From positions 1,674,001-1,738,000 of the forward strand of contig NZ_CP027062.1 in NCBI RefSeq assembly GCF_002966125.1: a stretch of 64,000 nt of DNA, written 5' to 3'. Below are positions 194 to 14,978 of the stretch, piece by piece (positions within the stretch are counted from its first letter, which is position 1; every line of letters begins with the position of its first letter). The DNA comes from Pukyongia salina (GTDB taxonomy: Bacteria > Bacteroidota > Bacteroidia > Flavobacteriales > Flavobacteriaceae). The notes under the pieces were generated by a model, which was not told the origin of the DNA, made no database searches, and was given only the letters and a program-made list of their open reading frames with translations. The position numbers and the translations under genes were made by a program.

Positions 194-910
194 ATGTACA
201 GAATATTTCTTTTTTTTATCCTTACGTTTAGCCTGGGAACTACACCATTATCCGGGCAGGAAACCAAAACTTTCTTCCAACAAACTAACGAGTTTTTATC
301 GCAGAATGTGAAAGGAGGCAAGGTTGATTACAAAGGCGTTCACAGTGATCCTACACACTTGAACGAGCTTATGGCGCTTATGTCCACAATGAATGTTTCC
401 TCTGTTACTAAGAAAGAATACCAGGCATTTTGGATCAACGCATATAATATAAGTGTGATAAAAGGCATCATAGATAATTATCCCTTAAACTCCCCTCTTG
501 ACGTGAATGGCTTTTTCGATAAGACACGCTACTCTATTGCCGGGATGAATATTACTCTTAATGAGATCGAAAATGACATATTGCGCAAAAAATTCAAAGA
601 TGCAAGATTTCATTTTGTACTGGTTTGTGGAGCCAGAGGTTGCCCACCTATTATCGCTCGTGCATACACCGCGGAAAATCTGGAGCAATTACTGGAAAAA
701 CAAACAATAAAAGCATTAAACAATAGTTCTTTCATTAAGGTGTCTGGAAACGATGTGGCACTGTCTGAGATCTTCAAATGGTATAAGGAAGATTTTGTTG
801 ATAACGAGACAAGCGAGATCGACTTCATTAATAAATACCGTAATGAAAAAGTATCTGTGGGAGCCAATATATCGTACTATCCATACGATTGGCGCCTGAA
901 TTCTCAATAA
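194..910 (+). CDS. Exported DUF547 domain protein
   Basis: A 238-residue protein with an N-terminal signal peptide (hydrophobic residues 4-18, cleavage probably after the SGQ near residue 22). The remainder is a DUF547 domain. The family hallmark is visible as a His-Phe followed four residues later by Cys, then CP, in the segment HFVLVCGARGCP around residues 138-149. The biochemical role of DUF547 is not established. A paralogue with the same motif lies at 3182-3979 in the arsenosugar cluster on the other strand. This copy is alone on the plus strand, so it may or may not share that job. The ATG at 194 is the only start that leaves an intact signal peptide. Confidence 0.85.
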   Translation: MYRIFLFFILTFSLGTTPLSGQETKTFFQQTNEFLSQNVKGGKVDYKGVHSDPTHLNELMALMSTMNVSSVTKKEYQAFWINAYNISVIKGIIDNYPLNSPLDVNGFFDKTRYSIAGMNITLNEIENDILRKKFKDARFHFVLVCGARGCPPIIARAYTAENLEQLLEKQTIKALNNSSFIKVSGNDVALSEIFKWYKEDFVDNETSEIDFINKYRNEKVSVGANISYYPYDWRLNSQ

Positions 911-2451: not shown

Positions 2452-3159
2452 TTAAGTCTGAATATGTTTCTTGTAATATCTGGACAATGCGGCGGCATCT
2501 GCACCTAGCCATTTCCTGATATGTATCATTGTAAAATGATATTGCAGTTTCATAGTGCCGTTTCTGGCATATTTTCTAGCCGAGGTAATCACATAGTCAT
2601 TGATCACCGTAAATTTATACTGATCGTAGATTTTTCCTATAAAATCACAGTCTTCATATATTTCGAACTCTTCATCGAAACCATTTAATGAATCGAAGAT
2701 TCTACGCTCAACAAAAAGAGATTGATCTCCACCACGACAGGCTTTGAAGTTGAATCGGGTGAAGTATTGGGAAAAGATAAGTACAGGATGTTTGGAGTCG
2801 AATTTCATACGGAAACATCCGGCGTTATTTCCTTTTTGAACCTGTTTGAGTATAGCATCATCAAATCCCGCGGGAGGGAACGTATCTGCATGTAGAAAGT
2901 ATAATACGTTGCCCCTGGCTAAATTGGCGCCAGCGTTCATTTGTCGCGCCCTGCCTTTTTCAGATTCACAAATTACTAGTGGAAGACCGCTGCCATTTTC
3001 ACTAAATGACCTCGCTAACGGGATTGTCTCATCTGTGCTTCCGCCGTCTACGATAATTACTTCAGTTATCTTGCCCGACTTACTGTGTGTGTCCAGATGA
3101 TGCAGAAGACCGCTAATTGATGCCGCTTCATTGTATACCGGGATAATAACGCTAATCAT
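2452..3159 (-). CDS. Family 2 glycosyltransferase, rSAM-associated type (TIGR04283-like)
   Basis: A 235-residue soluble GT-A glycosyltransferase. The N-terminus has the family 2 pattern VSVIIPVYNE-type (residues 2-11), followed by VDGGSTDET (nucleotide-sugar binding) and a HADTFPP segment in place of the DxD metal site. Short, membrane-free GT2 proteins of this kind repeatedly co-occur with the radical SAM/Cys-rich protein now called ArsS. That protein is encoded five kilobases upstream on the same strand. The gene is last in the minus-strand cluster, 22 bp after the DUF547 lipoprotein gene. An arsenosugar-assembly role is inferred from neighbours; the acceptor is unknown. Confidence 0.8.
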   Translation of the reverse strand: MISVIIPVYNEAASISGLLHHLDTHSKSGKITEVIIVDGGSTDETIPLARSFSENGSGLPLVICESEKGRARQMNAGANLARGNVLYFLHADTFPPAGFDDAILKQVQKGNNAGCFRMKFDSKHPVLIFSQYFTRFNFKACRGGDQSLFVERRIFDSLNGFDEEFEIYEDCDFIGKIYDQYKFTVINDYVITSARKYARNGTMKLQYHFTMIHIRKWLGADAAALSRYYKKHIQT

Positions 3160-3181
3160 GTTTTAAAGATAGTAAAACTGC

Positions 3182-3979
3182 CTACTGTTCGTTTAAATTC
3201 CAGTTGTAGTTTTTATAGGTGATAGACGCTGTTTTATCAATCTTTTTGGTTGTATACTTATTAATGTAGGCAATTACATCCACTTCTCCGTCCACGGTAA
3301 AATCCTTTCGGTACCAGTCGAAGATGGATGACAATTTTGGATTCGATTTATTCAGATCATTTTTATCACTGTTGATAAATTCCCTGGTAGCTTTGTCCAG
3401 TTGCGCTTCTATCCTTGAGGCAGTAAAGGCTTCATTAAGTAGCTTTGGACAAGATATCGATGCACAATTAATAGCGAAATGTATCCTGGGTTCGTTCATT
3501 TTCCGAAGTATTCCATTTTCAATTCCACCCAAAGAAAGGGTCTTATCGCCAATGGGTACAATAGCACTTGTCCAGGGACCACTAATGTCCTTAATACTTT
3601 TCACCGGGTAATTATCCAGGATCAGCTTAACTGTATAAGCGTTATAGGTATTTATATAATAGGCAAGTAACTCCTCAACACTCCAACTTTCCAGGGGCTG
3701 GGTTTTAGACAACATGGTGAGATACTCTATGAGAGTTTTTTCATCCTTTTGGAATCCTTTATAATTCACCATCCCGTTGGCATCAACATGCTTTTTCAAT
3801 AATTTATCCCAAGTGCTGTGATCTACAATTTCTTCGGAAGCGGATATCGTATTTAGGGTGCCACTTACTTCTTTGGTAGGCTGTCCCTGGCTGGTAAGTC
3901 CGGCAGCAGAGAAAAGGGAACACTGATGAAAGAATAATGAAAGTATTCCAATTGAAATAAATTTTAAGGTTTTGTGCAT
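3182..3979 (-). CDS. DUF547 lipoprotein in the arsenosugar cluster
   Basis: A 265-residue protein with a lipoprotein signal (FFHQC, Cys20) and a DUF547 domain from about residue 55. It carries the same His-Phe-x3-Cys-x5-Cys-Pro motif (HFAINCASISCP) as the plus-strand paralogue at 194-910, and a similar C-terminal end. Its envelope location contrasts with the cytoplasmic enzymes of the cluster. It follows the PiT permease by about 100 bp and precedes the glycosyltransferase by 22 bp. Function is unknown; co-transcription with arsenic genes is suggested only by orientation and spacing. Confidence 0.85.
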   Translation of the reverse strand: MHKTLKFISIGILSLFFHQCSLFSAAGLTSQGQPTKEVSGTLNTISASEEIVDHSTWDKLLKKHVDANGMVNYKGFQKDEKTLIEYLTMLSKTQPLESWSVEELLAYYINTYNAYTVKLILDNYPVKSIKDISGPWTSAIVPIGDKTLSLGGIENGILRKMNEPRIHFAINCASISCPKLLNEAFTASRIEAQLDKATREFINSDKNDLNKSNPKLSSIFDWYRKDFTVDGEVDVIAYINKYTTKKIDKTASITYKNYNWNLNEQ

Positions 3980-4082
3980 AACTGACTATTTTTTCTATTT
4001 ACGTAAAAATTTGCGCAATGGATTTCATTTAGATTGGAAAGTCCAATAAGAGGTCGAATAAAACGGTTTATGCTTACACTGC

Positions 4083-5186
4083 TTATTTGAGAATATAAAA
4101 GACCATAGCACTAAATAGGGCGGCTACAGGTAAGGTAAGCACCCAAGACATTAATATCTTTTTGATCATCGTATGATTGGATTTTTTTGTGATAGTTCCA
4201 ATACCAAAAATAGACCCCACCGAAACATGAGTTGTGGACACCGGCAGACCATGAACACTGGCCGTGGTAACCAATAAGCCCGTAACAAGATTAGATGTAA
4301 CCCCCTGGCCGCTGTTCATAGGAGTAATTTTCTTGCTAATATTGATACCTACTTTTCTGGCGTTGAGCATGCCTCCAATCGCCATGGTAATGGCAACTGC
4401 AATCATGCCCCATTTTATCTCCAAAGCGTTAATGATCAACAGTAAACCCACTATTTTTGGCGTGTCGTTCAGCCCTCTTGCGAAACTCACTACCCCGGCA
4501 CTAATAAAATGAAGTGTATTAACAGCTTTTTCAGCCGATATACCAACTATTCTGCCGTTGTAAGACTCATCACATTTCTTCTTACACTTAGATAATTGTA
4601 TTGATCTATGAGATTCTATGGGTACATTAGTTTGTGTTTCCTTTAGAATGACAGTAGCCTCTTCCAAACATATACAGCTGTTTCTTGTGATCCCTAATTT
4701 TTTTCTAAAGTTTCGGAAAATGAGATAAGCAAGATAGCTCAGAAGCCCTGCGATTAACGGACTTACGATTAGCGGTATTAAAAAAGCCTTACTAAGTTTT
4801 CCGAAGTTAAAATCTGCCCCAATAGCCATTATGCCGGTTCCCACTAAGGCACCCACAAGGCTGTGCGTTGTAGAAATTGGCATTCCTATTTTGGTGGCGA
4901 GAAAGACCGTTATGGCAGCTCCTAATGCAATTGAAGTAGCAAAAATTGGGTTTTGAATAAGATCATTGGGAACTAACCCCTTTCCCGAGAAGTTTTTAAC
5001 AAGAGTTTCTGCCAGAAAAATGGCTGCTACTGCACCGACGAAGGTTGTTAAAGTCGCCCAGTTGATAGCAGTTCTAAATGCCGTAGTTCCACTACCATAC
5101 AAAGTAGCGACCCCCTTAAAATTATCGTTCGCACCGTTGCTGAATGATAGAAAACAGGCTGCAAGAAAAAGTAGGATATAGATCAT
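4083..5186 (-). CDS. PiT-family inorganic phosphate (arsenate) permease
   Basis: A 367-residue polytopic membrane protein with the duplicated PiT architecture. The signature GANDNFKG appears in the first half (residues 18-25) and its counterpart ARGLNDTPK in the second, separated by a hydrophilic loop near residues 165-215. PiT proteins move divalent-metal-phosphate by proton or sodium symport and also admit arsenate. The gene lies 19 bp behind arsM. This makes phosphate supply for the phosphorylase, or arsenate entry for methylation, reasonable inferences, but the sequence does not decide between them. Confidence 0.9.
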   Translation of the reverse strand: MIYILLFLAACFLSFSNGANDNFKGVATLYGSGTTAFRTAINWATLTTFVGAVAAIFLAETLVKNFSGKGLVPNDLIQNPIFATSIALGAAITVFLATKIGMPISTTHSLVGALVGTGIMAIGADFNFGKLSKAFLIPLIVSPLIAGLLSYLAYLIFRNFRKKLGITRNSCICLEEATVILKETQTNVPIESHRSIQLSKCKKKCDESYNGRIVGISAEKAVNTLHFISAGVVSFARGLNDTPKIVGLLLIINALEIKWGMIAVAITMAIGGMLNARKVGINISKKITPMNSGQGVTSNLVTGLLVTTASVHGLPVSTTHVSVGSIFGIGTITKKSNHTMIKKILMSWVLTLPVAALFSAMVFYILK

Positions 5187-5205
5187 TCAAAAAAGAGATA
5201 TATAC

Positions 5206-6174
5206 TTAGCAACAACCTCCACCATCGTAATGAAAGGTAGAGTCGCTGATAAAAATATCTTCTCTCTCAAGGTCGGCCAGATTGCCTGCCGTTTTATCAC
5301 AAACCGCTATGGGTTGGTTCTTCAGAAGGATATGTCCCTTGCCATCATCCAGATATTCATCTTCCCCATAGTAGATCGCTGCTTTCCCGGTAAATACACA
5401 GGGGCCGTCTTCAGGCATGGGATCTTTGATCGCTGCCACCTCAATAGATTCTATATAAATGAGTTCATCTGTGGGGTAATTTTTTGGGTCCAGTATACGA
5501 TAAGGTTTACGGGCCCTGATCTCAATGGTGCCGAAGCCCACATCGGTAAGCGCTTTCACATAATCCTTTATTGGAAGACTACCGCTTAGACATAGTGCTC
5601 TTAGTCGCGCATCGTTGCGAAGCGTTTCATTCATGGATTGTTCGCAAGTTGGATCGCTCATCACCAATCTACCATGCGGTTTTAAAACCCGGTACATTTC
5701 TTCGATCGCCTTTTTAAGATCTTCCTCCTTAAAAATATTGAACAAGCAGTTTTGAGCAGCAACATCTATACTGTTGTCCGGGACAGGAAGATTCATGGCA
5801 TCTCCCTTGCGCAATTCGACGAATTCACTCTTAAACCACGGATTTTGCTCTTCGGCTTCAATAAAATTCTTTTTGGAAGCTTCCAGCATCTCATCTACCA
5901 CATCCACGCCAATCACGCCTCCTTTTTGCCTTGAGAAATAGGAAAACTGCAGTAACTCCATACCGCCGCCAACGCCTACGTAAAGTATCTTAGGATTGTT
6001 AACGAGGTCTCTGGCATGTACAGTACTTCCGCAACCGTAATTCATTTCCTGCATGATCTTAGGGATCTTAAGCCCAGGTAATTCCCAAATTGGGTTGGTA
6101 GTACAACAGAGTCCTACATCTGGTGTTAGTGCTGCATCTTTATAAAGATCATGGGTGGTCTCTAAATAACTCAT
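5206..6174 (-). CDS. arsM: Arsenite S-adenosylmethionine methyltransferase (arsenosugar type)
   Basis: A 322-residue class I SAM methyltransferase. The SAM-binding motif I (LYVGVGGG) is at about residues 64-71, and motif-like segments at GVDVVDEML and GDAMNLPVPDNSID follow. Cysteines at 48, 143 and 195 have roughly the spacing of the three arsenite-binding cysteines of characterised ArsM enzymes. Extra pairs occur at C23-C24 and at the C-terminus (GGGCC). ArsM methylates As(III) to dimethylated species, the precursor used by ArsS. It sits between the PNP gene (22 bp upstream) and the PiT gene (19 bp downstream). The terminal Cys pair is typical of the arsenosugar-associated branch. Confidence 0.88.
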   Translation of the reverse strand: MSYLETTHDLYKDAALTPDVGLCCTTNPIWELPGLKIPKIMQEMNYGCGSTVHARDLVNNPKILYVGVGGGMELLQFSYFSRQKGGVIGVDVVDEMLEASKKNFIEAEEQNPWFKSEFVELRKGDAMNLPVPDNSIDVAAQNCLFNIFKEEDLKKAIEEMYRVLKPHGRLVMSDPTCEQSMNETLRNDARLRALCLSGSLPIKDYVKALTDVGFGTIEIRARKPYRILDPKNYPTDELIYIESIEVAAIKDPMPEDGPCVFTGKAAIYYGEDEYLDDGKGHILLKNQPIAVCDKTAGNLADLEREDIFISDSTFHYDGGGCC

Positions 6175-6196
6175 GAGTGAAATTTTTAAAATTTAA

Positions 6197-7009
6197 TTAA
6201 AGGGATCTAATTAGCTCGGTAAATAATGTAATCATATCGGGTTCTGCTTTTGCAGCCATTGCGAGTATGTCTACGATTTCTACCGGTTCGAGATGATCCG
6301 GATCACATTCGTCGGTTAATACCGATAAAGCTGACACCGGAATCCCTAAATGATTAGCGACGATTACCTCCGGTACTGTACTCATACCAACAGCATCTGC
6401 GCCAATGATCTTAAGATATCTGTATTCGGCACGTGTTTCCAGTTGAGGTCCCACTACACTGGCATACACTCCCTTGTGTAATTTTATGTCGTAATTTATG
6501 GCTATTTCTTCTATGAGTTGATTCATCTCCTTGTCGTAAGGAGCACTCATATCTACAAATCTTTCTCCCAACTTTTCTACCCCTCTAAAAGCCAAAGGTG
6601 AACTTCCCTGTAAATTGATATGATCATCTATAAGCATGATCTCTCCTTTGTTGAAGTTTAAATTTATGGCACCGGAAGCATTGCTCACCAGTAATCTTTT
6701 TATTCCCAGCCGGTGCATAACTCGTACCGGAAAGGTTACATCCTGAAGTGAATATCCTTCATAAATATGAAATCTTCCCTGCATTAGGATGACTTTTTTA
6801 CCACCCAATTCCCCGTAAATTAACTTTCCTGTATGAAATTCGACCGTGGCAGTGGGGAAATTAGGGATATGATTGTAGCTCATTTCAGCTTCTACATCGA
6901 CATATTCCAAAATCTTTCCTAGGCCCGTACCCAGGATGATCCCGATTTCGGGAACGCCAAAACCACGTTCTTCTAAAAATGTAACGGCTTCTTCAATTTG
7001 TCTGGTCAT
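6197..7009 (-). CDS. Purine nucleoside phosphorylase
   Basis: A 270-residue trimeric-type PNP (PNP/MTAP family). Visible are the phosphate-binding GTGLG near residue 27, HTGKL, the GRFHIYEG segment (family motif GRxHxYEG), VSNASGAIN, and the base-binding region ending TDECDPDHLEP. The Asp in TDECD replaces the Asn of mammalian enzymes, as is common in Bacteroidota. The start codon overlaps the preceding glycosyltransferase stop by 4 bp, which ties it to the operon. Besides ordinary purine salvage, it could phosphorolyse the adenine from the ArsS product 5'-deoxy-5'-dimethylarsinoyl-adenosine; that is inference. Confidence 0.9.
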   Translation of the reverse strand: MTRQIEEAVTFLEERGFGVPEIGIILGTGLGKILEYVDVEAEMSYNHIPNFPTATVEFHTGKLIYGELGGKKVILMQGRFHIYEGYSLQDVTFPVRVMHRLGIKRLLVSNASGAINLNFNKGEIMLIDDHINLQGSSPLAFRGVEKLGERFVDMSAPYDKEMNQLIEEIAINYDIKLHKGVYASVVGPQLETRAEYRYLKIIGADAVGMSTVPEVIVANHLGIPVSALSVLTDECDPDHLEPVEIVDILAMAAKAEPDMITLFTELIRSL

Positions 7010-7632
7010 ATAGGTTTCGCTTCATTAATATGCGTTAAAAAGTGTTTAAAGGCTGGGACATCTTTTATATCGTCATAGGTGTCCACATCGTTCTTTACGG
7101 TTAACAACCTGGTAGGTTTGTCATATAATTGGGCAAGTGTGTCCTTTAGGACAGAGTCACTACCCCATTCTTTATTTTCAAATAATTCGGGAATAAGTGT
7201 TCTCATCCCAAGCAGATAATATCCACCATCTGCTGCAGGACCTATTACCACTTCATTATGGTCCAATGCAGAGAAGGCATCTTCAATATCGGCGGTATCC
7301 AGCTCGTAGATATCACTCCCTATGATAATGACCTTTTCGTATCCTTCTTTCAGCCCCATTTGAAAAGCATGCTTCATGCGGTCACCCAGGTCTTCACCCT
7401 GCTGTAAACGTTTATCGAAAAGCGAATTATCCCAGGCATCCTTGGTGTGAATTTCTTCCGAATAATATAAATGACGAGAAACGTCTAATTCCATCGAGAT
7501 CTGCCGGGTGTGCTCCAATAGGAATTTATAAATATTAAGCGCGATCTTGTTACCAACCGTAGCAGCCAACCGGGTTTTTACTTTACCCAGCTCAGGATTT
7601 CTCGTGAAAATTATCAAGAGTTCTTTATTCAT
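7006..7632 (-). CDS. DUF2064/TIGR04282-type glycosyltransferase-like protein
   Basis: About 208 residues from the ATG at 7632. I chose it because IIFTRNPELGKVKTRLA immediately follows and matches the N-terminus of the family; the open frame extends further upstream without support. The fold is a nucleotidyl/glycosyl-transferase A type related to CofC, with a GSDIYEL segment for metal/nucleotide binding and GPAADGGYYLLG, the family hallmark. Members co-occur with the radical SAM/selenodomain protein (ArsS) and the short GT2 found at the end of this cluster. The start overlaps the rhodanese stop (ATGAATAA), indicating translational coupling. Confidence 0.85.
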   Translation of the reverse strand: MNKELLIIFTRNPELGKVKTRLAATVGNKIALNIYKFLLEHTRQISMELDVSRHLYYSEEIHTKDAWDNSLFDKRLQQGEDLGDRMKHAFQMGLKEGYEKVIIIGSDIYELDTADIEDAFSALDHNEVVIGPAADGGYYLLGMRTLIPELFENKEWGSDSVLKDTLAQLYDKPTRLLTVKNDVDTYDDIKDVPAFKHFLTHINEAKPI

Positions 7633-8128
7633 AGACCTTTTCTCCGTTGGTGAGCCATTTACTCCAGGCTTTTGAGAATGAATGCACTTTTTCTGTTTCA
7701 TTTCCTTCGGAATCTACTATCGGGTATCCATTGTTTTTCCATTCGAATATACCTCCGTATAGATTCCTGATATTTGAGTAGCCTGCTTTCCTGAGTTTTT
7801 CACCTATCTCTTCAGAACGTATTCCCAGCGAGCAATACACAACGATAGTTCGATCACTGTCAGGAATTTTTTCTGTGATCATTTCCGAAGAAAAATCTGA
7901 AAAACCTATAAATAAACCTCCAGGTATCCTGCTTACTTCATATTCTTCAAATTCGCGTGCATCCAGGATGTAAACCTCATCATTCAACTGAAGCATTCTC
8001 AATTCTTCAACCGAAATATAAGGAATGGACCGGGTGTTATAGGTATTGAGTAACTGCTGCAGTGATTCCTGCGCAGAGCTTTGAAGGCCCAATAGAAATA
8101 ATATAATATAAACTAATCTCAACTTCAT
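7625..8128 (-). CDS. Exported rhodanese-like protein
   Basis: About 167 residues from the ATG at 8128; the frame extends to a TTG at 8143 but the ATG gives a clean signal peptide (MKLRLVYIILFLLG, cut near SSAQ). A single rhodanese domain follows, with LDAREFEEYEVSRIPG and the active-site loop CSLGIRSEE, which retains the catalytic Cys. Such domains carry persulfide sulfur or bind oxyanions. Its place between arsS and the glycosyltransferase gene, overlapping the latter by 8 bp, implies a role in the same pathway. Thiolation or envelope redox handling of arsenicals is conceivable but unproven. Confidence 0.85.
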   Translation of the reverse strand: MKLRLVYIILFLLGLQSSAQESLQQLLNTYNTRSIPYISVEELRMLQLNDEVYILDAREFEEYEVSRIPGGLFIGFSDFSSEMITEKIPDSDRTIVVYCSLGIRSEEIGEKLRKAGYSNIRNLYGGIFEWKNNGYPIVDSEGNETEKVHSFSKAWSKWLTNGEKVYE

Positions 8129-8149
8129 GACTAATAATCTCAACAGGCG

Positions 8150-9214
8150 TTATGCAACACTCCCCTGGCAACTGCTTCCGGCTCCGGCGGTACAACCAAA
8201 ACAATGCTGGGAAATAATGATATTCCTGTCGTTCAGCACTGCTTCGTTATAATCCTTTATATGTTGCACTTTACTGGCCACTTTTAATTCGAGCATCTGG
8301 TTAAAGTCGCAGTCGTACAGATATCCATCCCAACTCACCGAAATTGTATTAGTACACATTACATTAGCGACGGCCTCAGGATTGTAGGCATCTACCAATT
8401 GATACATATAATCCTCGTAATTTTCGGAAGCTATCAAATAATCAAGAAAGCGAGATATAGGAAGATTTGTAATAGCAAACAGATTGTGAAACTGTATCCC
8501 GAAATCATCTAGCAGGGCCTTTTTAAAATCTTTTTCCATACTAGCCTGATCCCCTGGTAAGAAGGCACCACTTGGGTTGTAAACGAGGTCTAGCCTTAGA
8601 TCACTGCCTGGCATTCCATACCCAACATCGTTCAGCATTTTCAGGGCTTCGATAGAAGCATCGAAAACACCATCCCCGCGTTGCTTGTCGGTTTTACCAC
8701 GTGTCCAATGTGGCATGGAACTTACCACGTGTACATTGTGATCCTTAAAAAACTGAGGCAGATCGTAATATTTTTTATTCGCACGTATGATAGTGAGGTT
8801 ACTCCTAACTATAAAATCCTTTATTCCCGCTTTACTTGCCTCATCTACAAAACGCCTGAAATTTGGATTCATTTCCGGGGCGCCTCCTGTTAGATCGAGG
8901 GTGTGGGCACCGGTGTTTCTAATTACATCCAGACAAAGTTCCATGGTTTCCCATGTCATGATCTCTTTTCTGTCGGGCCCTGCATCTACATGGCAGTGGT
9001 CACAAACCTGGTTGCACATGTAGCCCACATTGATCTGTAATACTTCCAGTTTATTGGGTCGCAAAGGGAATTGTCCGCTTTCCTTGATCTTCTGGGCGAA
9101 TGTAGGAAGTTCGCCATCACGAAATATCCCATTAGAGAGAATCTCAAGTTGTCTGTTCGACTTCGCGAGGTCGCTGTTTCTTTTGTGAAGTGATTGGGTT
9201 TTTAATTTCGTCAT
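8150..9214 (-). CDS. arsS: Radical SAM enzyme of arsenosugar biosynthesis
   Basis: A 354-residue radical SAM protein. The [4Fe-4S]-SAM cluster motif Cx3Cx2C is at C67, C71 and C74 (MCNQVCDHC). The middle has DLTGGAPEMNP as the SAM-contacting GGE-like segment. The C-terminus is a small Cys-rich domain (CFGCTAGAGSSCQG, cysteines 338, 341 and 349), the position that carries selenocysteine in some relatives and is plain Cys (TGC) here. Enzymes of this family join dimethylarsenite to the 5'-deoxyadenosyl group of SAM. The gene follows the peroxidase-like gene by 14 bp and precedes the rhodanese by 21 bp. Confidence 0.9.
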   Translation of the reverse strand: MTKLKTQSLHKRNSDLAKSNRQLEILSNGIFRDGELPTFAQKIKESGQFPLRPNKLEVLQINVGYMCNQVCDHCHVDAGPDRKEIMTWETMELCLDVIRNTGAHTLDLTGGAPEMNPNFRRFVDEASKAGIKDFIVRSNLTIIRANKKYYDLPQFFKDHNVHVVSSMPHWTRGKTDKQRGDGVFDASIEALKMLNDVGYGMPGSDLRLDLVYNPSGAFLPGDQASMEKDFKKALLDDFGIQFHNLFAITNLPISRFLDYLIASENYEDYMYQLVDAYNPEAVANVMCTNTISVSWDGYLYDCDFNQMLELKVASKVQHIKDYNEAVLNDRNIIISQHCFGCTAGAGSSCQGSVA

Positions 9215-9228
9215 AAGTGGTTTTTACC

Positions 9229-9558
9229 TTATCCGTCTAGTTTGTTCACTTTGTTCATCATCATTACTCCATGCACTAGCGTGGCACCACTTCTGATAGC
9301 TGCACCTACATGTATAGCTTCCATCATTTCCTCTTTGGTGACACCCCGTTGCAGGGAATCCTTGGTATATGCATCTATACAATATGGACATTGTTCGGTA
9401 TGAGAAACAGCAAGGGCAATGAGTGACTTTTCCCTGGCTGTTAAAGCCCCTTCTTCAAATACTTTTCCGTAGTAATCGAAGAATTTAGTGCCAAGTTCTT
9501 CACTCCACTGAGTGATATCTCCAAACTTACGCAGGTCTTTAGGATCGTAATAAGACAT
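9229..9558 (-). CDS. Arsenosugar-associated AhpD/CMD-like peroxidase
   Basis: A 109-residue carboxymuconolactone decarboxylase/AhpD-fold protein with the redox motif CPYC at about residues 57-60 inside HTEQCPYCIDAY. The length and motif match the small peroxidase-like proteins that recur beside ArsS. AhpD-type proteins use the CxxC pair to reduce peroxides or disulfides. It is the first gene of the minus-strand cluster, just behind the probable promoter, and precedes arsS by 14 bp. A role in keeping arsenic trivalent or protecting the radical SAM cluster is inference. Confidence 0.88.
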   Translation of the reverse strand: MSYYDPKDLRKFGDITQWSEELGTKFFDYYGKVFEEGALTAREKSLIALAVSHTEQCPYCIDAYTKDSLQRGVTKEEMMEAIHVGAAIRSGATLVHGVMMMNKVNKLDG

Positions 9559-9706: not shown

Positions 9707-10459
9707 CTAATCGAAACTGTAAGTAATTCCCGTACTGAAATCGTATTGCGAATTTGGGATTCCTATAGCCGGGAAGGCGTCATAAGTGAACGTATAGGAT
9801 GTTTTCAGCGCGAAATTTTTAAACAGGTCTACCACTAAGGAACTCATACTCGAGATTCGATAGTCATGAAACTTGTCGATTCGCGGCTGATAATAGGTTG
9901 TACTAATAATCGTAACATGGTCTGAAGGGTATAGACTGAAGGATAAATAGGTGCTTGCCCTGAAATCCTTTTGGGTGGGTGTGACCCCGTCAATTACGTT
10001 TTCATGTTCGTACATGGCGAGTAATCCTAAATAGAATTTGTACTTCTCGGAAGTAGTTAATTTTATACGCGGACCTGTACCTACTAGCCCTCTGAAATCG
10101 ATTAGATTCACTTTATTATATTGCCCCTGTAAAAATATCTCCCAGGCCATTCTGGGATGGAAACGGTAATTATACCGAATATGTGAAATAAGGCTGTTGT
10201 CGAAATTTTCACCTTCTATCTTCTGAAATGCCACATCGTTCTTAAAGAGTATAAGGTGGTCTTTCATTTTATACTGAATATGGATATCACTACCAATGGT
10301 AAGGAAATCGTTTACATTGCGCTTAACAGCAAACGAAGCGCTCATCGATCCCGAAAACCCCGAAGTATCCGTCACTTTGCGAAGTGATTCGGCATTTAAT
10401 ATTTGACATTCTGCGGATATTGAAATAAGAAGAAAAAACAGGAAGGCGAAGTATCGCAT
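9707..10459 (-). CDS. DUF481-like outer-membrane beta-barrel protein
   Basis: About 250 residues from the ATG at 10459, chosen because it begins a standard signal peptide (MRYFAFLFFLLISIS); the open frame runs 18 codons further upstream without support. The mature part is a succession of short amphipathic beta strands with alternating aromatic residues, ending in aromatic-rich TGITYSFD, as in outer-membrane barrels. The overall pattern resembles DUF481 proteins. Function unknown. It stands alone behind a terminator and about 150 bp before the arsenosugar promoter. Confidence 0.65.
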   Translation of the reverse strand: MRYFAFLFFLLISISAECQILNAESLRKVTDTSGFSGSMSASFAVKRNVNDFLTIGSDIHIQYKMKDHLILFKNDVAFQKIEGENFDNSLISHIRYNYRFHPRMAWEIFLQGQYNKVNLIDFRGLVGTGPRIKLTTSEKYKFYLGLLAMYEHENVIDGVTPTQKDFRASTYLSFSLYPSDHVTIISTTYYQPRIDKFHDYRISSMSSLVVDLFKNFALKTSYTFTYDAFPAIGIPNSQYDFSTGITYSFD

Positions 10460-10502
10460 AGCTATTACAAGATGGTTAGTTTGATTAAAATTAAAAATAA
10501 AA

Positions 10503-10535
10503 CAAGATCCCACAAAAAAGTTTTGCGGGATCTTG
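10503..10535 (-). terminator. Terminator of the sugar-transport operon
   Basis: Perfect 9-bp arms CAAGATCCC (10503-10511) and GGGATCTTG (10527-10535). On the minus strand the hairpin is followed by a T-rich run, 27 bp after the stop of the SSS symporter gene. It separates that operon from the barrel gene. Confidence 0.85.
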
Positions 10536-10561: not shown

Positions 10562-12142
10562 TTACTGAAAATAAATGTAGGTAAATACTACGATCAACAC
10601 TATGGCAAGACCCACAGGTTTAACGTATTTCCAACCCGTAATATCAACTTGTTTCGTATGTAATTGAACATAATCTGTTGTGCGCGGATAGAACTTCCCT
10701 ATCACGAGCATGACCAGGATATTGAATACAAATAAGATCGCCATCACATGTAGGAAATGAGGATAGCTATCGCCATACATGGGCGCCAGTACAAACTGAC
10801 TTATAGTATAAAGAATTACACCAGACAAGATCGCGACCTTGGCAGCGATTGCCGGAACGCGCTTAGTTAAATACCCAACTACTATTATGGTTAGTATAGG
10901 TATACTGTAACAGCCGTTTACTTCCTGAAGGTAACCAAACAATCCGGCCGGAGCATTTGCGATAAAAGGGGCGATCAACATGGAAGCAACTGCCAGTACT
11001 ATCCCAAAGAGCTTCCCTTTTTTTACAATGGTTTTTTCGGTGGCTTCCTTATTGATATATTCCTTGTAAATATCTACACCAAATAAGGTGACCGAACTGT
11101 TCAAAGCAGAATTAAACGAACTCAAAATAGCCCCAAATAAAACGGCAGCAAAGAATCCAACAAGAGAGGCGGGCAGCACCTCACGCACTAGAGTGGGGTA
11201 AGCCTGATCTGCATTGGTGATCTCACTTTCATACAAATAGAATGCAATTATCCCAGGGAGAACAACAATGAGCGGCCCCAGGATCTTTATAAATGCGGCA
11301 AGCATTAGACCCTTTTGTCCTTCCTTCAGATTTTTAGCCGCCAGGGCTCTCTGTATGATAGCCTGGTTAGTTCCCCAGTAGAATAATTGTACTAACATCA
11401 TACCTGTGAAAATAGTACCAAACGGGATAGACGATTCGCTATCTCCGGCAGCCACGAACTTTTCGGGTAGGGTTGTCATTAATTCATTGATCCCGGCACT
11501 TACACTTCCATTACCAACTTCCCAAAGTCCGAAAACAGGGATCATCAATCCTCCAATGAGCAAGCCAACAGCATTTACCGTATCAGAGACTGCAACTGCT
11601 TTCAGCCCTCCGAAAATCGCATAGATCGAGCCTACAATACCTATACCCCAAACACAGACCCATAAAGCCGCGGTATCGGAAATACCAAACGCTTCAGAAA
11701 CATTGAACATAGTGCTAATTGCCAGTCCGCCGGAGTAAAGAACTATGGGCAAAAGCACGATCATATAACCAGACAGGAACAGGCCCGAAGTAATAGCCTT
11801 GGTGCCTTTATCGTATCGTCGTTCCAGGAATTGAGGGACGGTTGTAATACCACCCTTCAGGTATCTGGGCAGTAAAAATATAGCTGTTACAACAATGGCA
11901 ATAGCGGCCAAAGTTTCCCAGGCCATTACTAAGATTCCTTCCGTATACGACTGCCCGTTGAGACCAACAATTTGTTCGGTAGATAAATTGGTGAGGAGTA
12001 ATGATCCGGCGATCACAACAGCGGTTAGACTTCTACCACCAAGGAAGTAACCGTCTGAACTTTGTTCATCGGTCTTACGTGTAGCGTAATACGAAATAAC
12101 TCCAACGAGAATGGTAAAAGCCAAAAAAGTAATAATGGTCAT
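10562..12142 (-). CDS. Sodium:solute symporter (SSS/SLC5 family), probably sugar
   Basis: A 526-residue protein with about 14 membrane-spanning segments and no signal peptide. The SSS pattern is seen in the N-terminal YFLGGRSLTAVVIAGSLLLTNLSTEQ and the IFGGLKAVAVSDTVNAVG segment of the fifth/sixth helices, typical of SGLT-like members. Family members couple sodium to uptake of sugars, inositol or related solutes. It ends the operon that runs trehalase, PfkB kinase, symporter, 19 bp behind the kinase gene. The sugar carried is not determined by sequence; neighbours suggest a mono- or disaccharide. Confidence 0.88.
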   Translation of the reverse strand: MTIITFLAFTILVGVISYYATRKTDEQSSDGYFLGGRSLTAVVIAGSLLLTNLSTEQIVGLNGQSYTEGILVMAWETLAAIAIVVTAIFLLPRYLKGGITTVPQFLERRYDKGTKAITSGLFLSGYMIVLLPIVLYSGGLAISTMFNVSEAFGISDTAALWVCVWGIGIVGSIYAIFGGLKAVAVSDTVNAVGLLIGGLMIPVFGLWEVGNGSVSAGINELMTTLPEKFVAAGDSESSIPFGTIFTGMMLVQLFYWGTNQAIIQRALAAKNLKEGQKGLMLAAFIKILGPLIVVLPGIIAFYLYESEITNADQAYPTLVREVLPASLVGFFAAVLFGAILSSFNSALNSSVTLFGVDIYKEYINKEATEKTIVKKGKLFGIVLAVASMLIAPFIANAPAGLFGYLQEVNGCYSIPILTIIVVGYLTKRVPAIAAKVAILSGVILYTISQFVLAPMYGDSYPHFLHVMAILFVFNILVMLVIGKFYPRTTDYVQLHTKQVDITGWKYVKPVGLAIVLIVVFTYIYFQ

Positions 12143-12161
12143 AAGTTCTATATGTTAGCTA

Positions 12162-13100
12162 TTAGATTTTTAAAACATCAGAGATCACATCGGCGAAATC
12201 GGGTATTCGTCCCACATTCTGTAATTTAATGGCAGCCATTTGCAGGGCCGCTTCCATACATTTTTGTTTAGGTTTTCCTTTTAGCCACGCGAATAAAAAC
12301 CCAGACCAAAACGCATCTCCGGCTCCCGTAGCATCCATGATCTTTTCAACTTTCAGTGCCGATAGTTCCAGGACAGGATGATTTCGTTCACTTAGCTTTG
12401 CACCATCTTTTCCAAGGGTTAGGCACACCAGATCCACACCAAGATCATGAAGATAGTTAAATATTTGTTCGTGACTCATTCCTTCCCCAAACAACCTGTC
12501 TACGTCATCCTGACTCACCTTAACTATGGGATTAAAACCACAAAACCTCGTTATGGCCAACTTCGCCTCCCGGGTATCGGGCCAAATCTGTTCAGAATAA
12601 TTTATATCGATACTTAACTGGCATCCCAGGTTGGCAGCTCTTTCGGCTGCATCGAGTATGGTATTTCGTGCTGGCTGACGGCTTAGAGCAAAGCAAGATG
12701 TATGAAATATTTTAGCTTGTTTAAGCTTTTCATCAGTGATCTGGAGCGGTAAAATTTCGGCATCTGCCCCTCTAAGGGCAACAAATTCAGGCGTTGCCAC
12801 TGTTCTCGAAACGAAAATCACTGTAGTGGGTTCAGAATCCGAAATTCTAATTCCATCGTGTTTAACTTCATTTTCACCAAGTCGGTCACGAATATATTTC
12901 CCAAACCCATCATTTCCAACCGCGGAGATCATTTCCACGTTCAGTCCGAGTCTGGCCATATTCATCGCCACATTGGTAGGGGACCCACCGAGATACCGGT
13001 GATAATCTTTTATTTGATGTATTGGATGCTCGGGCTGTGTGCCAATAAAATCAATTAGAGATTCACCAATACAAATAATATCAATAAGTCTGTTCTTCAT
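12162..13100 (-). CDS. PfkB-family sugar kinase (fructokinase-like)
   Basis: A 312-residue ribokinase-like kinase. PfkB signature 1 is represented by LGGSPTNVAMNMARLG near residues 37-52, and signature 2 by DATGAGDAFWSGF, which holds the catalytic Asp and the anion hole. Cytoplasmic. In a locus with a GH32 fructosidase, phosphorylation of released fructose is the most economical role, but 2-keto-3-deoxygluconate or other kinases share the same motifs. It lies 10 bp after the trehalase and 19 bp before the SSS symporter. Confidence 0.85.
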   Translation of the reverse strand: MKNRLIDIICIGESLIDFIGTQPEHPIHQIKDYHRYLGGSPTNVAMNMARLGLNVEMISAVGNDGFGKYIRDRLGENEVKHDGIRISDSEPTTVIFVSRTVATPEFVALRGADAEILPLQITDEKLKQAKIFHTSCFALSRQPARNTILDAAERAANLGCQLSIDINYSEQIWPDTREAKLAITRFCGFNPIVKVSQDDVDRLFGEGMSHEQIFNYLHDLGVDLVCLTLGKDGAKLSERNHPVLELSALKVEKIMDATGAGDAFWSGFLFAWLKGKPKQKCMEAALQMAAIKLQNVGRIPDFADVISDVLKI

Positions 13101-13109
13101 TTTAACAAA

Positions 13110-14978
13110 TTAAAAGAGTTGATCCGGGGGAACCAGATCATTTAAATTTTTAATCAATCCTTCGTCTAAGAGTGATACGCCATATTGAAATGAGGCATTC
13201 ATCCACCCAAAGCCTTCTTTGGTAATATATTGAAATTCGGTCCCCACATTCCCATATTCGGCAAATACCTTATGGGTGGCAATTACCACATCGTATTTCT
13301 CCGGGATGGTCCCATTGTAATCTACCGCATTTCTCGTGATCATATAGAGCCAGCGATAGACTAGCTCTTGCAATTCCTTTTCAAATCCATATTGTTTCAA
13401 ACCTTTCCATATCATCATTTGATGGGGTGCCCATCCGTTGGGGTAGTCCCACTGTTTCTGTGGCCGATGTTCGCTAATAGCCCCCCGGCTGGCTTCATCA
13501 CAAGATGCAATGCCTCCTTTTTCTTTCAGAAGTGCAATTCCATTTTTTACCGAAGAAGCCGCTTGTTCTGCATCACAGATCCCTGCCCAGAGTGGAGTAA
13601 ATAGTGTAGCCGACACAAACTTGGTTTGCGCTCCTGTAGCGATATTGAAATCGAAATACATACCTTCAGTATCATTCCAGAGCAAGGAGTCCATCAGTTC
13701 TTTTCTTTCCGAAGCCTTATGCTCCCAATATTCGGAGGTGTAGTTTTTACCGTTGTAGTTGAAGCTATTGTTAAATTCACCTTGGATCAATTTGGCAAAA
13801 TCTGTTTCGTATTTATAAAGAAAGGCATTCAATTCTACGGGGATAATATCGGCACAAATTCCTTCCAGGCGATATGAAGTATCATGCCCAGACTCCCTAA
13901 CACTTCTGTCATGGACAAAATACTTGTCAAGAGCCGGGTTTTTTATGTCCCCTTTCGAATAAGCCTCCTCGTATTCTAGAATACTCATACCTGCTTCCTT
14001 GGCATAACCGGCAAATACATGGTTAAAGTGTCCTGCCTCTGCCTCGGGGGGTTTACCCAGACCTTCCGCCAGATATCGGTTGAGTTTAAAACCTGTAAGT
14101 CGTTTTCCCGGCACCATCCATACGGTTTCGTATTCGCGAATGGCAGTTTTTAAATGACTCTCCAACCACGATTTGTCTTGAGTCTTTATATAGACTTCAG
14201 AAATTAAACTAGAGTAGAAGGGAGGTTGAGTTCGGGTTAAATAGTACGATCGATTGGCATTTAATATCTTTCCGTAATGCTCGATCTCGTACTGAAAGTT
14301 ATCGGCCATTGCCCTGGCCAGGTCAATTCGATCATCCAGGATAAGCCCGATCGATTCGAAATAACTATCCCATCCGTACATCTCGTTGAATCGTCCGCCG
14401 GGAACAACAAAAGGCACCCCTTTTATTTCGCCATTTACCAGTTCGAGTTTTAGAGACAGTATCCCTGGTTTGTCGTTCAGGCCTCTCACATACTCCGGGC
14501 TGATAATTTCCGGTAGGCGAACTACTTCCAGGGGTAATTTTTTTTGTAATTCTGAATAATAGGAATAGGCTTGCTCGTCGTGGTAAGGTACATATACGAT
14601 CAGAACAGCGATCTCGTCCAGGGTTTCATTCTTAGAATCCTTTAGCAGTGATTCGATCCCGGAAGCATCCATGGTGCGAGTGAGACCGTTCCAGTAGTAT
14701 TCCCGTATCATCCTGGAAATTCTCTTAACAGGTGGTTCTTCGAGATGATCCAGGCTAATAAAAGCGACGGTATCACCATTTTCCTTGGCCAGAATGAGTT
14801 CCTGCAAGAGATTGGAGAGATGATAGGTTCCGCTTAATGTATGTTGGTGTCCTTCTTCAGAAGTGATCGTAAAAGATTTAGGACCCTGGTCTTCAACGGT
14901 TATTTTTTTGTCATTATCGGTATCCTCCTGAGCCAGGAGTTTTTTCAGAGTGGCTTCTATGTCTAGTTTGAAGGTCAT
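13110..14978 (-). CDS. GH37 trehalase of the fungal neutral type, with Ca-binding motif
   Basis: A 622-residue cytoplasmic (alpha/alpha)6-barrel trehalase, hydrolysing trehalose to two glucose. Signature 1 PGGRFNEMYGWDSYF starts at residue 193 and signature 2 QWDYPNGWAP is in the C-terminal third. The catalytic Asp lies in RESGHDTSYR and the catalytic Glu region in KEGFGW. The N-terminus has an EF-hand-like loop DTDNDKKITVED (residues 19-30) followed by QGPK, as in the calcium-binding domain of fungal neutral trehalases (Nth1 type). It has no signal peptide, unlike the periplasmic TreA of enterobacteria. The start overlaps the MFS stop by 4 bp. Confidence 0.92.
   Translation of the reverse strand: MTFKLDIEATLKKLLAQEDTDNDKKITVEDQGPKSFTITSEEGHQHTLSGTYHLSNLLQELILAKENGDTVAFISLDHLEEPPVKRISRMIREYYWNGLTRTMDASGIESLLKDSKNETLDEIAVLIVYVPYHDEQAYSYYSELQKKLPLEVVRLPEIISPEYVRGLNDKPGILSLKLELVNGEIKGVPFVVPGGRFNEMYGWDSYFESIGLILDDRIDLARAMADNFQYEIEHYGKILNANRSYYLTRTQPPFYSSLISEVYIKTQDKSWLESHLKTAIREYETVWMVPGKRLTGFKLNRYLAEGLGKPPEAEAGHFNHVFAGYAKEAGMSILEYEEAYSKGDIKNPALDKYFVHDRSVRESGHDTSYRLEGICADIIPVELNAFLYKYETDFAKLIQGEFNNSFNYNGKNYTSEYWEHKASERKELMDSLLWNDTEGMYFDFNIATGAQTKFVSATLFTPLWAGICDAEQAASSVKNGIALLKEKGGIASCDEASRGAISEHRPQKQWDYPNGWAPHQMMIWKGLKQYGFEKELQELVYRWLYMITRNAVDYNGTIPEKYDVVIATHKVFAEYGNVGTEFQYITKEGFGWMNASFQYGVSLLDEGLIKNLNDLVPPDQLF

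Follow-up and report, generated by a model that had tools for sequence, protein, structure and literature searches.

The window analysed here, a 64-kb stretch (64,000 nucleotides) of the Pukyongia salina genome, carries on its minus strand a nine-gene operon (2452-9558) that we predict, with a probability of roughly 0.55, to make an arsenosugar by means of ArsM, ArsS, a purine nucleoside phosphorylase (PNP), TIGR04282 and TIGR04283. Judged from sequence, phosphorolysis is the leading candidate for the step after ArsS because a nucleoside phosphorylase is tightly co-inherited with ArsS and ArsM. The operon is best read as a putative arsenic cassette (AhpD-ArsS-PNP-ArsM) joined to a separable glycosylation module (rhodanese-TIGR04282-DUF547-TIGR04283), since the glycosylation genes form a unit without ArsS too. 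As far as we have seen, two points are new: the co-inheritance of PNP with ArsS and ArsM, and a glycosylation module that is not tied to arsenic. Arsenosugars rank among the main organic forms of arsenic in the sea, and we know of no study that defines the steps of their synthesis after ArsS. If our reading is true, the next enzyme after ArsS would be a nucleoside phosphorylase, the sugar would be passed on as a 1-phosphate and then as a nucleoside diphosphate (NDP)-sugar, and the range of likely producers, beyond cyanobacteria and algae, would take in about three quarters of the sampled flavobacterial genera (147 of 198 have ArsS). The nine genes, in transcription order, and a hairpin beyond the last of them are as follows.

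9229..9558, minus strand: AhpD-like protein with a CPYC motif; TIGR04169, 190.6 bits (cut-off 120)
8150..9214, minus strand: ArsS, radical SAM protein with a Cys-rich C-terminus (DUF3641); TIGR04167, 435.3 bits (cut-off 300), and PF12345
7625..8128, minus strand: rhodanese with a hydrophobic N-terminus and a C-x4-R loop (YCSLGIRS); NF045521, 200.6 bits (cut-off 145)
7006..7629, minus strand: TIGR04282 (DUF2064), CofC-like; 210.6 bits (cut-off 134)
6197..7009, minus strand: PNP; NF006054, 333.6 bits (cut-off 218), and TIGR01700, 296.6 bits (cut-off 293.35)
5206..6174, minus strand: arsenosugar-type ArsM ending in GGGCC; NF038099, 577 bits (cut-off 400)
4083..5186, minus strand: PiT-type phosphate transporter; PF01384, 225 bits (cut-off 33.7)
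3182..3979, minus strand: DUF547 protein, probable lipoprotein; PF04784, 96.5 bits (cut-off 27)
2452..3159, minus strand: TIGR04283, GT2 glycosyltransferase; 227.6 bits (cut-off 182), and PF00535, 70.9 bits
2056..2090, minus strand: terminator-like hairpin 3' of the last gene, 15 pairs with a T-rich tail

All nine genes are open frames and are tightly packed, with successive intergenic gaps of 14, 21, -5, -4, 22, 19, 103 and 22 bases. The frames and the family models over cut-off bear out the original prediction of a nine-gene, single-strand operon with short gaps, and its "several overlaps" came down to two (-5 and -4). For the rhodanese, the ATG at 8128 is the most likely start; that of TIGR04282 is most likely 7629, within the rhodanese gene. 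Seven of the nine proteins passed curated NCBIfam cut-offs, and five of the models passed bear the name "arsenosugar biosynthesis", so the cluster type is already catalogued; "several uncharacterised members" therefore ill describes an operon in which five of nine genes have such names. PiT and DUF547 were assigned by Pfam. All six models of the NCBIfam set (TIGR04167, TIGR04169, TIGR04282, TIGR04283, NF038099 and NF045521) were passed in the window; in that set, however, none of PNP, PiT and DUF547 is given an arsenosugar name, and TIGR04282 and TIGR04283 are also found without ArsS. The hairpin alone is weak, nine terminator-like sites having been found in the scan against 6.8 (standard deviation 2.2) expected in shuffles, and the promoter scan gave 21 sites against 23.6 expected.

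The window PNP belongs to class I, as both TIGR01700 and NF006054 were over cut-off. In the genus of genome G084, 8 of the 131 genomes had an ArsS over cut-off. A profile of operon PNPs scored at least 404 bits in exactly these eight, every other match reaching at most 338.6 bits, and arsenosugar-type ArsM was confined to the same eight genomes. In all eight, no more than about 8 kb separated the operon-type PNP from ArsS, and seven kept a second, housekeeping-type PNP. On the PNP tree, five of the eight fell near the common operon clade and three in a sister group (support 1.0), both lineages standing apart from the housekeeping clade; the three sister-group genomes have their clusters arranged differently, PNP lying on the other strand. 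In one ArsS genome (G429, locus L250), the cassette consists of four genes only, AhpD-ArsS-PNP-ArsM. These co-occurrences are fewer than eight independent events because one inheritance could explain many of them.

A family-wide sample of 199 genomes, nearly one per genus, gave a similar association. ArsS was present in 148 genomes, and operon-type PNP lay within 15 kb of it in at least 110 of these, about 1% being expected by position alone; in the remainder, 26 had operon-type PNP elsewhere and 12 had no PNP among the matches listed. The count of 110 and the corresponding count for ArsS-free genomes (below) are lower bounds; like the phylum counts of TIGR04283, they were compiled by hand from lists, with totals that agree with the tallies. 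Together, these results give strong co-inheritance support to "base removal" by PNP, as had been proposed. No paper in the literature searched assigns PNP to arsenosugar synthesis, a partial coverage that is no proof of novelty.

The neighbourhood of ArsS was then compared across named genomes. Eighty flavobacterial ArsS loci were fetched (the label rests on named best relatives), of which 64 with enough flank were counted and 16 dropped; of 60 loci taken from the phylum's other families, 52 were usable and 8 dropped. Dropped loci had too little flank or an ArsS uncalled by the script (L114 being among the latter). Neighbours were counted on the same strand from -2.5 to +9.5 kb of ArsS, and genes in the other-family and follow-up loci were predicted mechanically. 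The 64 flavobacterial loci contained AhpD-like (60), TIGR04282 (54), rhodanese (42), PNP (40), ArsM (39), DUF547 (35), TIGR04283 (27), fatty-acid-hydroxylase-like (18) and PiT (6) genes, and the 52 other loci contained AhpD-like (29), TIGR04282 (25), TIGR04283 (17), ArsM (7) and DUF547 (5) genes. From these two sets of counts, the widespread core of ArsS clusters is AhpD-like, ArsS and TIGR04282, and linkage to PNP is characteristic of the window's family. Since the neighbours recur in the 64 flavobacterial loci, an arrangement by chance is excluded; the PNP and TIGR04283 counts confirmed co-occurrence with ArsS far above chance, the point on which the original prediction had staked its refutation.

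ArsM and ArsS proved to be of the arsenosugar types that had been claimed, both scoring over cut-off against their models. The ArsS sequence holds CNQVCDHC and CFGCTAGAGSSCQG, with a C-x3-C-x2-C motif and a Cys-rich tail; the GGGCC terminus of ArsM was present in 62 of 64 homologues, and CPYC was conserved in 126/126 AhpD-like homologues. The ArsM/AhpD fusion model NF041537 was matched by the AhpD-like protein at 1.8e-6 and also by the window ArsM, which ties the AhpD-like protein to ArsM; such a fusion appears in a table of PMC13188914. We also considered whether ArsS-free genomes hold a divergent ArsS, and rejected this: in 11 of them, radical SAM matches of middling score covered the core domain only, all below cut-off, and are putative MoaA proteins by length.

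ArsM and ArsS perform the first arsenosugar steps, according to PMC8552651 and PMC12159101. The ArsM-ArsS route of Synechocystis sp. PCC 6803 has two committed enzymes in common with the window, whereas the window operon adds PNP, TIGR04282, TIGR04283, the AhpD-like protein, rhodanese, DUF547 and PiT. The arsinothricin cluster arsQML, as described in PMC8552651, likewise has ArsM beside a radical SAM enzyme that forms a C-As bond. In contrast to the window, its ArsL transfers a 3-amino-3-carboxypropyl group, and the window ArsM reached 103.9 of the 500 bits required by the arsinothricin ArsM model.

Next to PNP lies TIGR04282, the stop of which is overlapped by 4 bases by the PNP start in the window; in 71 TIGR04282-PNP pairs, 37 overlapped and 16 had a gap of 0-50 bases. 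TIGR04282 passed the Pfam CofC model PF01983 (27.5 bits; cut-off 22) and fell below the CofC model TIGR03552 (34.5 of 105 bits), a weak homology to CofC (2-phospho-L-lactate guanylyltransferase) with motifs in common. An alignment of 36 TIGR04282 homologues revealed invariant K18, R20, G104-S105-D106 and D134-G135-G136. By simple motif count, GK[VIA]K[TS]R[LM] was found in only 48 of 121 sequences; a gene caller that opens each frame at the first ATG may account for misses by truncating some N-termini, and the motifs given here are those of the alignment. With the TIGR04282 profile, 3cgx (a putative nucleotide-diphospho-sugar transferase) was matched at 9.1e-44, and 2i5e, a CofC, at an E-value of only 0.04 with DGG and D-I-D...E-D-L in common. 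From the CofC matches and the invariant motifs we infer that TIGR04282 is a nucleotidyltransferase, which makes it doubtful that the "transferase" of the original prediction is one of sugar. Its coupling to PNP fits a hand-over of a sugar 1-phosphate. TIGR04283 scored over the cut-off of its arsenosugar glycosyltransferase model, and in the phylum sample it occurred in 135 of the 156 genomes with ArsS and in 66 of the 239 without it (odds ratio 16.9, uncorrected for kinship).

PNP yields an alpha 1-phosphate, GT2 enzymes invert, and natural arsenosugars are beta-ribosides. In the pathway that we propose, ArsM would convert arsenite into its dimethylated form and ArsS would add the 5'-deoxyadenosyl group of S-adenosylmethionine (SAM), steps known from cyanobacteria and assigned here by family. 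PNP would then use phosphate to split the arsenonucleoside into adenine and 5-deoxy-5-dimethylarsinoyl-ribose 1-phosphate; the CofC-like TIGR04282, translationally coupled to PNP, would convert the sugar 1-phosphate into an NDP-sugar; and TIGR04283, acting as an inverting transferase, would place the sugar on glycerol or a glycerolipid, yielding a beta-riboside like the known arsenosugars. The AhpD-like protein may act as thiol reductant for ArsM and ArsS and PiT may bring in phosphate, with rhodanese and DUF547 probably acting outside the cytoplasm.

We also inspected ArsS clusters on plasmids, taking six of the 52 plasmid records with ArsS, one per organism. Three of the six lineages, all proteobacterial, had in their clusters a phosphorylase from another branch of the superfamily. 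The Acinetobacter portensis row comprises ArsS, DUF547, TIGR04283, TIGR04282, a methyltransferase and PiT, with a convergent MTAP gene; on the Burkholderia glumae plasmid, MTAP adjoins TIGR04283 on the opposite strand to ArsS, about 6 kb off; and the Cupriavidus cluster holds PiT, an ArsM relative, ArsS, TIGR04282, a PF01048 phosphorylase and DUF547.

Several observations weigh against the proposed pathway. A phosphorylase was not seen in the examined stretch of the Hymenobacter, Pseudanabaena and Thiodictyon plasmids (0/3), and none of the phylum's 52 usable loci outside the family had PNP as a same-strand neighbour of ArsS. The complete 3.18-Mb genome to which the window belongs has one ArsS over cut-off and one PNP, the operon copy, which can be housekeeping because it is the sole PNP of the genome. 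Operon-type PNP is also carried by at least 14 of the family's 51 ArsS-free genomes, so across much of the family the enzyme may have a purine-salvage role too; beyond these, ArsS-free G549 and G669 also gave PNP E-values of operon level. The best models of the window PNP are 6-oxopurine types, and it did not reach the MTAP model TIGR01694 (89 vs 274.85 bits). A base-pocket signature of a dedicated PNP was sought and discarded: the Asp found in 66 of 66 operon PNPs was also present in 39 of 42 genome-set PNPs (three operon sequences and one genome-set sequence being unreadable by pattern) and, being general, marks no special substrate. The match of TIGR04282 to 2i5e ranks beside an unrelated chain at an E-value of 0.066. 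Among the 201 TIGR04283 genomes of the phylum sample, 66 are without ArsS, and in the genus of G084 the same holds for 4 of the 12 carriers of TIGR04282 and TIGR04283. Finally, no arsenosugar product from any Bacteroidota strain was found in the literature searched.

The glycosylation genes were followed further in ArsS-free genomes. TIGR04282 and TIGR04283 each occurred in the same 12 of the 131 genomes, namely the eight ArsS genomes and G413, G433, G440 and G503, and in these last four both ArsS and arsenosugar ArsM were absent genome-wide. An intact rhodanese-TIGR04282-hydroxylase-DUF547-TIGR04283 unit was found in ArsS-free G413, G440, G503 and G154; in G433 its genes are split over two contigs. 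The same five-gene, hydroxylase-containing unit lies apart from ArsS in the ArsS genomes G419 (about 16 kb off), G429 and G500. In G130 and G134, a row of rhodanese-TIGR04282-PNP-ArsM-DUF547-TIGR04283 (with PiT after ArsM in G134) stands apart from AhpD-ArsS, and ArsS-free G182 has one block of rhodanese-TIGR04282-PNP-DUF547-TIGR04283. Ten ArsS-free loci held TIGR04282 with TIGR04283 in six cases and TIGR04283 without TIGR04282 in four. On a tree of 86 TIGR04283 sequences, the 13 tips from ArsS-free genomes were scattered, with 10 changes (a raw count). The ArsS-free units, together with the presence of PiT in 6 of 64 loci, contradict a single dedicated nine-gene pathway, as the original prediction had it. 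The "arsenosugar" label on TIGR04282 and TIGR04283 would accordingly be too narrow.

The G182 block would also suit a broader role, which we regard as a tentative possibility: PNP, TIGR04282 and TIGR04283 could be a general pathway that turns 5'-modified nucleosides into ribosides, in the order phosphorolysis, nucleotidyl transfer and inverting glycosyl transfer, arsenic entering only via ArsS and ArsM. Without these two, the route would handle other nucleoside-derived ribose, for example from 5'-deoxyadenosine or methylthioadenosine. It is unlikely, in our estimation, that two unrelated units merely share a promoter, with ArsM and ArsS dealing with arsenic and rhodanese, TIGR04282, DUF547 and TIGR04283 making another envelope glycoconjugate and having no arsenosugar role. 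The stand-alone units, intact in four ArsS-free genomes and split in G433, speak for such a division, as do the genome-wide absence of ArsM in G413, G433, G440 and G503 and the scatter on the TIGR04283 tree. However, this scatter also fits repeated ArsS loss, TIGR04283 is strongly enriched with ArsS in the phylum sample, and it sits with ArsS, TIGR04282 or DUF547 in other phyla too.

We consider it quite improbable that PNP is an ordinary purine-salvage gene fixed in the operon, with another nucleosidase or hydrolase removing adenine. Its status as the sole PNP of the window genome, its occurrence in ArsS-free relatives and its absence near ArsS in other families would all agree with salvage, but in the genus of G084 PNP is an additional copy that accompanies ArsS one-to-one, in two lineages. 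Very unlikely is an arsenate-handling role, in which PiT would import arsenate and arsenolysis by PNP followed by thiol attack would give arsenite for ArsM: human PNP with dithiols reduces arsenate in vitro and PiT adjoins ArsM in the window, Acinetobacter and Cupriavidus clusters, but PMC12608789, which gives the in vitro result, calls occurrence in vivo unknown, PNP is coupled to TIGR04282 rather than to PiT, Proteobacteria have MTAP-type phosphorylases in place of PNP, and PiT is rare at these loci.

The remaining operon members were compared with their homologues. Rhodanese homologues had a C-x4-R loop in 62/62 and a hydrophobic N-terminus in 59/62, and the rhodanese is probably exported. 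Rhodanese-fold arsenate reductases of the Acr2/Cdc25 type have a seven-residue C-x5-R loop; this role was rejected for the window protein, which is unlikely to be an arsenate reductase because its loop, like that of all 62 homologues, is too short and its N-terminus is signal-like. DUF547 homologues had a hydrophobic N-terminus in 55 of 58 and, by a simple pattern, a lipobox-like motif in 21 of 58; no relative of DUF547 in the PDB was found by sequence. PiT is an occasional member, given its low count among the flavobacterial loci, and the idea that it is a cysteine-rich arsenic binder was dropped, the window cysteine pairs being unconserved among 12 sequences compared.

Further genes recurred beside ArsS. 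A fatty-acid-hydroxylase-like gene (OlsE/sterol-desaturase type) separated DUF547 from ArsM or TIGR04282 in 19 of the 80 loci and was also present in ArsS-free modules (examples are L029:15725-16606, L196:6036-6938, L240, L244, L246 and L265), a possible hint at a lipid acceptor or an arsenolipid link. A SusC/SusD pair, a sodium:solute symporter-like gene and a calcineurin-like phosphoesterase gene were found repeatedly, often with a second, shorter TIGR04282; among the 80 flavobacterial loci (L003-L082), SusC was counted in 17, the symporter in 14, SusD in 13 and the phosphoesterase in 12, some SusC genes being distant or on the opposite strand. This block, also present in two other families (L117 and L118) and at loci including L175, L183, L189 and L253, looks like an uptake system for some substrate built into arsenosugar clusters. 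In 10 of the 80 loci, the cluster encodes a protein that has a DM13 (electron transfer) domain and a type IX secretion tail (for example, L028:19903-20628).

In the window, a DUF481 outer-membrane-like gene (9707-10513, minus strand) precedes the AhpD-like gene by about 150 bases, has the same orientation and is a possible further member of the operon; such a gene occupies the matching position at a small number of related loci (L003, L005, L006, L008 and L069). Farther upstream (10562-14978, minus strand), a solute symporter is encoded along with two proteins named by eye, a PfkB-like kinase and a large enzyme akin to trehalase-type glycosidases; relatives of these genes are near ArsS at L016. 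On the other side of the operon, a second DUF547 gene (194-910, plus strand) is beside a GH113-like gene (1034-2047), and 18 of the 64 flavobacterial loci have GH113 near the ArsS cluster on the opposite strand.

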